Shown here one piece after another: positions 5,895-7,784 of a DNA stretch of 64,000 nt (its first letter is position 1; the number at the start of each line of letters is the position of its first letter). A program made the position numbers and the translations under genes. Location of the stretch: positions 46,899 through 110,898 of the forward strand of contig JAMLIT010000004.1 in the NCBI GenBank assembly GCA_023954035.1, read 5' to 3'. The notes beneath the pieces were generated by a model, which saw only the letters and a list, made by a program, of their open reading frames with translations, was not told the DNA's origin and ran no database searches. Origin of the DNA: Burkholderiaceae bacterium. GTDB taxonomy: Bacteria; Pseudomonadota; Gammaproteobacteria; Burkholderiales; Burkholderiaceae_C.

Positions 5895-7022
5895 TTACAC
5901 CGCCGCCTTGCGGCGCTCAGCGACGGCCGCCGAGAGTTCTCCGAGCGTGGCGAGGGAGTCCTCCCAGCCCAGGCAGGCGTCGGTGATGCTTTGCCCGTAG
6001 GTGAGCGCGGCGGGCTGGTCCTTGCCGGGCGTGAACTTCTGGGCGCCCGCGACCAGATGGCTTTCGATCATCAGCCCGAACACGCAGCGCGAGCCGCCTG
6101 CCACCTGCGCGGCAATCTCCCGCGCCACGTCTTGCTGGCGTTCGTGCTGCTTGCTGCTGTTGGCGTGGCTGCAGTCGACCATCAGGGTGGCGGGGAGCTT
6201 GGCCGCCTGCAGGTCCTTGCACGCCGCGGCTACGCTGGCCGCGTCGTAGTTGGGCGCTTTGCCGCCGCGCAGAATCACGTGGCAGTCCTTGTTGCCCTTG
6301 GTATCGACAATCGCCACTTGGCCGTTCTTGTGCACCGACAAGAAGTGGTGGCCGCGGCTGGCCGACTGGATCGCGTCGGTGGCGATGCGGATGTTGCCGT
6401 CGGTGCCGTTCTTGAAGCCGATGGGCGCCGAGAGACCGGAGGCCAGCTCGCGGTGCACCTGGCTTTCGGTGGTGCGCGCGCCGATGGCGCCCCAGCTGAT
6501 CAGATCGCCGATGTACTGGGGCGAGATCACGTCGAGGAACTCGCTGCCCGCCGGCACGCCCAGGCGGTTGATGTCGATCAGCAGCTGGCGCGCGATGCGC
6601 AGGCCCTCGTCAATGCGGTAGCTCTCGTCCAGGTAGGGGTCGTTGATGAGTCCTTTCCAGCCCACCGTGGTGCGCGGTTTTTCAAAATACACCCGCATCA
6701 CGATTTCCAGCGTGTCCTTGTACTGCTCGCGCGCCGCCTGCAGCTTGCGGGCATAGTCCAGCGCCGCTTCCGGGTTGTGGATCGAACAGGGCCCAATGAC
6801 CACCAGCAGGCGATCGTCCTTGCCGGCCATGATGTCGTGGATGCTGCGCCGGGTGCGTTTGATCAGGCTCTCGGCCCTGGTCCCGCGAATCGGGAAAAAG
6901 CGGATCAGATGCTCTGGAGGTGGCAACACGGTGATTTCCTTGATGCGTTCGTCGTCGGTATCGCTGGTTTTCTCGACGCTTCGGTACCAGGCATCGCTGG
7001 ACGGATGTGCTGCTGCAGTCAT
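5895..7022 (-). CDS. aroG: 3-deoxy-7-phosphoheptulonate (DAHP) synthase, class I
   Basis: This enzyme condenses phosphoenolpyruvate and erythrose 4-phosphate to DAHP, the entry step of the shikimate pathway for Phe, Tyr and Trp. The 375-residue product shows the class I (AroFGH) signatures IGPCSIHNPEAALDYA, EKPRTTVGWKGLINDP, SQYIGDLISWGAIGARTTES-type text, GFKNGTDG and DCSHANSSK (metal and substrate binding). I chose the ATG at 7022 because the family N-terminus starts there; the frame stays open upstream only through the leader region. The mRNA begins with a leader peptide and terminator (7062-7191) that predict attenuation. Residues for Phe- or Tyr-type feedback were not assigned. Confidence 0.95.
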   Translation of the reverse strand: MTAAAHPSSDAWYRSVEKTSDTDDERIKEITVLPPPEHLIRFFPIRGTRAESLIKRTRRSIHDIMAGKDDRLLVVIGPCSIHNPEAALDYARKLQAAREQYKDTLEIVMRVYFEKPRTTVGWKGLINDPYLDESYRIDEGLRIARQLLIDINRLGVPAGSEFLDVISPQYIGDLISWGAIGARTTESQVHRELASGLSAPIGFKNGTDGNIRIATDAIQSASRGHHFLSVHKNGQVAIVDTKGNKDCHVILRGGKAPNYDAASVAAACKDLQAAKLPATLMVDCSHANSSKQHERQQDVAREIAAQVAGGSRCVFGLMIESHLVAGAQKFTPGKDQPAALTYGQSITDACLGWEDSLATLGELSAAVAERRKAAV

Positions 7023-7061
7023 GGATCTCTTTCGAAAGATGGAAAAAAAAGGAGGGCTGAA

Positions 7062-7098
7062 CAACAAAAAACCGCCGGGCTCTGCAGCGTCGGCGGTT
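7062..7098 (-). terminator. Attenuator terminator hairpin in the aroG leader
   Basis: In the transcript the arms AACCGCCG (7098-7091) and CGGCGGTT (7077-7070) pair perfectly over 8 bases around a 13-base loop, and a run of T follows directly (TTTTGTTG). It lies between the leader-peptide stop (7135) and the aroG start (7022). The CCGCC of the first arm (7096-7092) can instead pair with GGCGG in the last codons of the leader peptide (7143-7139), which gives a ready-made antiterminator. Confidence 0.8.
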
Positions 7099-7134
7099 GG
7101 GTGGGAAGTGTTCAGGTGCTTGCGCGCTTGCCTC

Positions 7135-7191
7135 TCATCCGCCAGGGACCGAGAACCAAAACCAAAAGTAGAAAGCGCTGCGCAATTGCAT
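7135..7191 (-). CDS. Aromatic leader peptide of aroG (attenuation)
   Basis: An 18-codon frame reads MQLRSAFYFWFWFSVPGG and then TGA. Residues 7-13 are seven consecutive aromatic amino acids (FYFWFWF), far beyond chance, so the peptide would sense charged Phe, Tyr and Trp tRNA together. It is followed by the terminator at 7062-7098. A ribosome stalled on the aromatic codons would leave the GGCGG at 7143-7139 free to pair with CCGCC and open the terminator; a ribosome reaching the stop would cover it and let the terminator form. No Shine-Dalgarno is seen; a possible -10 (GATACA, about 7204-7199) is so close that the transcript may start near the AUG. Confidence 0.85.
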   Translation of the reverse strand: MQLRSAFYFWFWFSVPGG

Positions 7192-7232
7192 GAGCGCGAA
7201 TGTATCACAGCGCGGGAGCACGACTTGCCCGC

Positions 7233-7784
7233 TCACTGTCCTCGTTTGCGCAACCAGGCCCAAGCGCGCTGCCAGGCGCTGGCCGGCGGTGGGCGCGCGG
7301 CGGGCTCGCTATGCAAGTTATCGCCCTGCTCGTACATGTCGATCAGCAGCAAGCCCTCTCCCAGGGTGCGCCAGGCCAGCAGTTCGACGCGATCGAAGGC
7401 CGGCCCCTCGCGCGGGCTGCGCTGCGCCAGCGCATGGTGCCAGGCCTCGACCGCCTGGCGCAGGCTGCGCAGCGCCAGCTGGTAGGCCCCCATCTCGTAG
7501 AGCGCGTGCCAGGCCGATCCCATGCCGGTGACGAAGAGCTGGTGTTCGCGCACGCACTGCACCAGGCTGGCCGCCTGGCGCGTGATTTCGGGGGTATCGG
7601 GCATGGCCGGCGCCGCGGGCGCGGCGCGGCGCGTGGCAATCGCCTCATCGATTTGCTGGGCCAGCGCGCCAATGCTGTCGCGCAGCTGGCGCGACTCTTC
7701 GTCGGCGACGCCCGAGCGCAAGAAGCGGCTGACGTCGCCAAACGACTGGACGGTGAGCTGCGAGCGGGAGCGCGATGCGACCAT
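7233..7784 (-). CDS. Uncharacterised 183-residue helical protein
   Basis: I do not recognise the family. The product is soluble, predicted largely alpha-helical, with an Ala/Pro linker (TRRAAPAAPAMPDTPE) at about 51-66 dividing an N-terminal segment from a helical core (about 70-150) containing MGSAWHALYEMGAYQLALRS and ending in a basic Trp-rich tail (AWQRAWAWLRKRG). It lies between tldD (41 bases upstream) and the aroG leader on the same strand, so tldD and this gene may form one transcript that ends before the aroG promoter. Confidence 0.65.
   Translation of the reverse strand: MVASRSRSQLTVQSFGDVSRFLRSGVADEESRQLRDSIGALAQQIDEAIATRRAAPAAPAMPDTPEITRQAASLVQCVREHQLFVTGMGSAWHALYEMGAYQLALRSLRQAVEAWHHALAQRSPREGPAFDRVELLAWRTLGEGLLLIDMYEQGDNLHSEPAARPPPASAWQRAWAWLRKRGQ

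Follow-up and report, generated by a model that had tools for sequence, protein, structure and literature searches.

A conserved aromatic leader ORF and terminator upstream of aroG in Burkholderiales, very probably a feedback switch of a familiar type not reported before

The region upstream of aroG

Within the window (the whole 64,000-nucleotide stretch of Burkholderiaceae DNA that was analysed), a DAHP synthase gene, aroG, is preceded by a short leader ORF that sits between an extended -10 promoter element and an 8-bp terminator (Table 1). Seven nucleotides lie between the promoter element, TGTGATACATT, and the ATG of the leader, and the distance from the end of the leader to the aroG ATG at position 7022 is 112 nt. 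The original prediction described seven consecutive aromatic residues in the leader, MQLRSAFYFWFWFSVPGG, which is confirmed to the base, and an 8-base perfect terminator stem with a T-run, which also holds: AACCGCCG and CGGCGGTT form eight perfect pairs around a 13-nt loop, and the T-run follows. A terminator scan that allows loops of no more than 8 nt gives, as a result, only a shorter, 5-pair version of this terminator, and a strict sigma-70 rule returns no promoter within 6500–7600. Between tldD and the leader, an ORF at 7233–7784 on the minus strand has no NCBIfam match.

Table 1. Features of the aroG upstream region and their positions in the window.
Feature	Position	Strand	Remarks
Extended -10 promoter element TGTGATACATT, hexamer TACATT at 7204–7199	7199..7209	-	Conserved in close loci
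Leader ORF MQLRSAFYFWFWFSVPGG	7135..7191	-	ATG at 7191, TGA stop at 7137–7135; direct reading
Seven aromatic control codons, F Y F W F W F	7153..7173	-	Direct reading
Region 1: 5' arm of predicted protector hairpin, starting within the last aromatic codons	7146..7158	-	Predicted fold of 7158–7125
Region 2: GGCGG core (7143–7139) and GAGAG; predicted 3' arm of protector hairpin and antiterminator strand	7129..7143	-	
Region 3: 5' arm of terminator, AACCGCCG, with CCGCC core at 7096–7092	7091..7098	-	
Region 4: 3' arm of terminator, CGGCGGTT (7077–7070), and T-run to 7066	7066..7077	-	
aroG, class I DAHP synthase, putative regulated gene	5895..7022	-	TIGR00034 aroFGH, 533 bits (cut-off 173.2)

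A density of at least six aromatic residues in nine was found in none of 7,744 background ORFs (8–45 aa, ATG or GTG start) taken from both strands of 80 related loci outside the 400 nt before aroG. In the 64-kb window, only the leader ORF reaches this density, together with the two longer versions of it that use other in-frame starts. Folding of the full 130-nt region is no better than that of shuffled sequences (z = 0.23), and the case presented here therefore rests on conservation and not on folding energy. Rfam gives no matches in the window, its Trp and Phe leader families included, and a search of 6980–7260 at a relaxed threshold gives only two sub-threshold matches, both to unrelated families; the leader peptides of eight relatives match no NCBIfam or Pfam model. 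The leader and terminator, without a model in Rfam, Pfam or NCBIfam, are likely an annotation gap.

The same genome encodes a second DAHP synthase that is 56% identical to the aroG product. No aromatic leader is present in the 560 nt upstream of this second gene or in the 700 nt upstream of pheA. Upstream of trpE lies a candidate near-leaderless leader, MFTHRAFIAGRSDRGAWPWRSCCA, which contains W-P-W, and TTTGCTACACT ends seven nt before the ATG of this candidate; it is a weak one, and no clear T-run terminator was found with it.

Distribution and conservation of the leader

The close set of loci consists of the window and 80 loci of Comamonadaceae and kin (81 in total), with AroG identities of 80–95%. 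An aromatic leader ORF lies no more than 400 nt before aroG in 79 of the 81, each with at least six aromatics in nine residues, and a terminator follows the leader in 78 of the 79. The two loci in which a leader was not found are L009, which offers only 31 nt of upstream sequence, and L075, which has a group II intron (RF00029, 47.3 bits) within the 178 nt available. The end of this intron (L075:70–141) sits just upstream of aroG, at the place that the leader and terminator occupy in the relatives. In L078 (1965–2010), the leader is intact, and the 3' arm of the terminator, the T-run and the start of aroG are all absent together, a joint loss that is perhaps an assembly collapse. The original prediction placed an attenuator before the DAHP synthase gene, and the comparison of related aroG genes supports this, in that the leader, the GGCGG element discussed below, the terminator and the extended -10 are all conserved in the close loci.

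The near-leaderless start of the peptide, raised in the same prediction as a possible oddity, is real as sequence, with the extended -10 seven nt before the ATG, and it is conserved as well. All 79 close loci with a leader have the extended -10, six of whose 11 positions are invariant in 79/79, and in 76 of the 79 it lies six to eight nt before the ATG; the remaining three have an in-frame ATG further up. Together with the usual distance from a -10 element to the transcription start, which was used to place the 5' end of the RNA, this conserved element predicts a transcription start at ~7192 in the window. The leader ORF would thus begin 0–2 nt from the RNA 5' end, leaving no room for a Shine-Dalgarno site. 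Among 47 scored loci of the further and distant sets, the best -10-like match is found 6–8 nt before the ATG in 21, and in many others it is found ~30–47 nt from the ATG, where it may be a chance match. Judged by these matches, leaderlessness is not universal outside the close loci.

Across the order, 195 of 250 genomes yield an AroG match that reaches E 1e-50 or better. The leader is present in 24 of 29 further Burkholderiales loci (22/25, plus two of four others, L085 and L086 with a leader and L098 and L106 without) and in 25 of 80 distant ones, the other 55 having no recognisable leader. The distant set represents 80 of at least 120 further places, and one of its members, L135, extends over only 300 nt. 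Four of 29 ORF candidates from this set were dropped as spurious for lack of a terminator, and 25 were kept. In distant Burkholderiales, leader presence is patchy as read from the sequences. A tree built from 113 AroG proteins (a quick IQ-TREE run with SH-aLRT as the sole measure of support) shows six changes between presence and absence of the leader, with 18 leaderless loci among 109 scored rows, a sample that includes only part of the leaderless loci. This tree includes the window, all 29 further loci and, of the 76 other close loci that were scored, 41; the distant set contributes the 25 loci with a leader and 15 of the 55 without, and L203 and L204 complete the rows.

A search of 399 genomes of the order for the exact codon pattern of FYFWFWF matched only the genome of the window itself, which shows that this particular run is not conserved and says nothing against conservation of the leader. 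The covariance model R1 gives a single full-length match in the same genome, at aroG with 89 bits, the next match being partial with 24.7 bits. A search of 274 genomes of the class with this model gave matches at E 0.01 or better in 38 of them, but scores above 60 bits were reached by only five matches, including two from outside the order (G562 and G410). Of 15 model R1 loci examined from 20 retrieved, four (L201–L204) show an aromatic leader upstream of aroG. The remaining 11, weak matches without a leader, were set aside as probable chance matches to terminators. In L203 and L204, which come from two genomes of another order of the class, a full-length relative precedes aroG (75 and 66 bits), and the switch may have arrived there by vertical descent or by transfer.

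The GGCGG element, predicted folds and proposed mechanism

The GGCGG core, which matches the CCGCC of the terminator arm by complementarity, is present in 124 of 125 loci with a leader and terminator, L045 being the exception; it is exact in 119 of the 124 and has one-base variants in five. In 112/124, the distance between the start of the core and the first base of the final aromatic codon is 11–15 nt. The position of the core relative to the reading frame is far more variable, with frames 0, 1 and 2 found in 83, 5 and 36 loci, respectively, such that it is translated as GG in frame 0, as RR in frame 1, and as LAE, QAV and the like in frame 2. At least 10 frame changes are required on the tree of 113 AroG proteins, of which 89 rows have a scored leader. 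Alignment of L037, L044 and L056 with their neighbours reveals one base fewer directly before GGCGG; the end of the peptide is wholly altered, and GGCGGT and GAGAG are kept. The same one-base loss is seen on another branch in L084, and L085 and L086 also have GGCGG in frame 2. Since GGCGG is kept in all three frames, a function of the C-terminal peptide cannot explain its retention, and base pairing can. In these alignments, it is the RNA rather than the peptide that is conserved at GGCGG.

Both stems were scored across the alignment. In the terminator, 96.2% of 1,089 cells are paired, and pair 135/152, which is G-C in 89, A-U in 28 and other in 4 of 121 rows, is altered on both sides in 28 of them. 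In the antiterminator (columns 39–46 with 129–136), 84.6% of 968 cells are paired, compared with 17.6–60.9% when the strands are slid. Pair 40/135 of this stem is C-G in 68 rows, U-A in 19, U-G in 11 and unpaired in 23, and the outer pair 46/129 is unpaired in 85/121, which indicates that the antiterminator is short. The GGCGG/CCGCC core is nearly invariant and thus yields no covariation signal. None of 500 shuffles reaches the observed number of antiterminator cells changed on both sides (21; shuffle mean 9.6) or the observed covariation score; the numbers of covarying pairs and of pair types show no excess, with 445 and 484 of 500 shuffles as high. Covariation between the leader and the terminator arm, scored on 94 unique rows, exceeds 2,000 of 2,000 shuffles at inner position -1 and is weak at -3 (p = 0.0185), and inner positions -2 and -4 and outer positions +1 to +3 are without clear excess in the same rows. 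The independent tree pairs are too few for covariation to be significant (3 pairs on well-supported branches; on average 2.4 change in the same direction and 0 in the opposite one), and for this reason the case for an attenuator is not rested on it.

A mutually exclusive pairing of GGCGG with CCGCC was part of the original prediction. The complementarity is confirmed, and the predicted folds agree in 122 of 124 loci. To represent a ribosome stalled one codon before the aromatic run ends, the RNA was treated as free beginning 10 nt downstream of the first base of the final aromatic codon, and region 4 was left absent. Under these settings, the predicted pairing of regions 2 and 3 exceeds 0.5 in those 122 loci (median 1.00); without a ribosome its median is 0.03, yet it is still above 0.5 in 40/124. 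Given the size of the ribosome footprint, the 11–15-nt spacing can be read as freeing the antiterminator strand. Once region 4 is present, the terminator beats the antiterminator at equilibrium even with a stalled ribosome (median 0.99–1.00), and the decision of the switch must therefore be kinetic. The predicted folds of the protector hairpin have at least two core bases paired upstream in 122/124 and at least three in 83/124, and the stability of this hairpin exceeds that of shuffles by a small margin only (mean z = -0.71). In the window, 6 nt separate the start of GGCGG from the stop codon. In 96 of the 124 loci, GGCGG is more than 13 nt before the stop, too far for a ribosome halted at the stop to mask it, and in these loci the protector would have to form again.

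The region thus combines a leader ORF rich in codons for the products of the pathway, a terminator before a biosynthetic gene, an antiterminator strand that is complementary to the terminator arm and exclusive by predicted pairing, and a spacing compatible with a stall. On sequence and folding models, we consider it highly probable that this is a trp/phe-type ribosome-mediated transcription attenuator, in which the supply of charged aromatic tRNA would set aroG expression. From the observed conserved parts, their spacing and their complementarity, we infer a transcription start, stalling, antitermination and an amino acid signal that would operate as follows. Transcription would begin at the leader ATG or within about two bases of it. 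When the aromatic run is read freely, the ribosome would reach the stop codon and cover GGCGG, which adjoins the stop in the window; in relatives whose stop lies further on, GGCGG would instead fold back on region 1 behind the ribosome. With GGCGG occupied, CCGCC would pair with the 3' arm of the terminator and transcription would end before aroG. A stall on the last few Phe, Tyr or Trp codons would place the ribosome over region 1 and leave GGCGG free to capture CCGCC before region 4 is made, in which case no terminator would form and aroG would be transcribed. By this geometry, only stalls on approximately the last three or four aromatic codons should open the switch, as earlier stalls would leave region 1 free.

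Other explanations of the same region were weighed. The hairpin could merely terminate the gene upstream, with the aromatic ORF being a chance frame, as a same-strand ORF does end shortly upstream, at 7233, and the absence of excess folding in the region as a whole would fit such a reading. The promoter element, leader and terminator are, however, kept in a fixed order in nearly all close loci, and the background for ORFs of this kind is 0/7,744; the reading is extremely improbable. Nascent-chain arrest, with the leader peptide sensing free aromatic amino acid in the ribosome in a TnaC-like manner, is also very unlikely: an aromatic run could act in the exit tunnel, but the order of residues in the run varies, the C-terminal residues are in three frames among the relatives, and stalling at high amino acid levels would have the wrong sign for a biosynthetic gene.

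Many terminator-bearing leaders are still without an assigned signal, and the terminator could in principle answer to a protein or small molecule bound to the leader RNA, with translation of the leader incidental. Against this stand the spacing between the last aromatic codon and GGCGG, whose narrow range looks like a ribosome ruler, and the lack of an Rfam family match; we find the proposal hardly credible. An additional role in trans for the terminated leader RNA or peptide, comparable to S. meliloti rnTrpL and peTrpL, would come on top of the cis role. The layout is as in the leaderless trpL of that organism, for which the cited part of the description gives both RNA and peptide as trans-acting (PMC7298713), but the C-terminus of the peptide is not conserved across families, which argues against a conserved peptide function, and a role in trans seems improbable on balance. 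Beyond the ribosome-mediated attenuator itself, we suggest, tentatively and as a possibility that falls somewhat short of even, that the switch is old and widespread: a single leaderless ORF would read all three aromatic amino acids and, in Burkholderiales, would be a main control, at the level of transcription, of the entry to the shikimate pathway. Ribosomes would load at the RNA 5' end as it leaves the polymerase, such that reading of the leader is coupled to transcription without a Shine-Dalgarno site.

Known attenuators and the amino acids sensed

The trp and pheA attenuators of E. coli (trpL and pheL) respond to one amino acid each and control terminal-branch genes. The aroG leader resembles them in its control codons, its predicted protector/antiterminator/terminator logic and its biosynthetic target, and differs from them in having a mixed run and in standing before the common first step. 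A precedent for a mixed aromatic leader before a DAHP synthase gene is provided by aroR-aroF of C. glutamicum, where, according to the cited portions, a Phe-Tyr-Phe leader precedes the gene, transcription rises under Phe limitation (PMC11802643, PMC4046766), and Tyr availability is without effect (PMC11802643); the likeness is one of function only and is drawn from these descriptions. C. glutamicum is an actinobacterium, and no Trp codons are named in those portions, whereas Trp codons are present in nearly all of the close Burkholderiales leaders. In the alphaproteobacterium S. meliloti, the leader RNA of trpLE(G) is described, in the part cited, as beginning at the ATG of the leader ORF, with trp-type attenuation that operates without repression (PMC7298713). 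Its leaderless leader ORF is shared with the aroG leader, whose 5' end is here only predicted; in contrast to the aroG leader, trpL responds to Trp and controls trpE(G).

Attenuation before DAHP synthase genes has also been predicted elsewhere, and the comparisons that follow are by description, as given in the cited portions. The uORFC-13-1 motif before aroF in Acholeplasma (PMC8632094) is similar to the aroG leader in that a terminator and a predicted uORF, one containing Phe codon(s), stand before such a gene. It is unlike the aroG leader in that its consensus has a ribosome binding site, only Phe is noted, and its occurrence is given as Acholeplasma and environmental sequences only. Among Proteobacteria, aroF and aroF-tyrA attenuators are predicted in Shewanella and Vibrio (PMC2659441, PMC1173090), which is again attenuation before DAHP synthase genes; these predictions differ in concerning Gammaproteobacteria and, for Shewanella aroF, in listing Tyr-tRNA as what is sensed, and those portions contain no sequence of a leader peptide. 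Our literature search brought up no published attenuator upstream of a Burkholderiales aroG, and the main text of a premature-terminator survey is without aroG or DAHP (PMC2965389). The aroG leader very probably belongs to a familiar type of feedback switch and has not been reported before; it is distinctive in its mixed three-amino-acid run, its wide spread and its conserved near-leaderless start.

The cited part of a large regulon study describes TrpR and TyrR regulons from lineages of Gammaproteobacteria (PMC5343134). The aroG leader is a candidate answer to the question of how many Burkholderiales control their first shikimate enzyme, and adds a putative mixed Phe/Tyr/Trp sensor at the common step of the pathway. 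The retention of the antiterminator strand through so many changes of reading frame constitutes a natural data set, and the conserved near-leaderless start is a good model for translation that starts fast enough to control a terminator ~100 nt away.

According to the original prediction, all three aromatic amino acids would be read at once. This suits the family more than it suits the window. In 59 of 77 close loci, the last four codons of the run include all of Phe, Tyr and Trp (YFWF in 51); in the window they are WFWF, and the sole Tyr codon lies five codons before the end of the run. A stall at that codon should leave the protector hairpin free and hence have little effect; judged by geometry, the position of this single Tyr codon probably makes it irrelevant to the switch, and Tyr limitation should act weakly. 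A nine-residue aromatic segment with all of F, Y and W is found in 76/77 close, 12/22 further and 8/25 distant loci. As for codon usage, the Phe codons of leaders within L003–L082 are mostly TTT (215/335), and aroG of the same loci prefers TTC (550/664).
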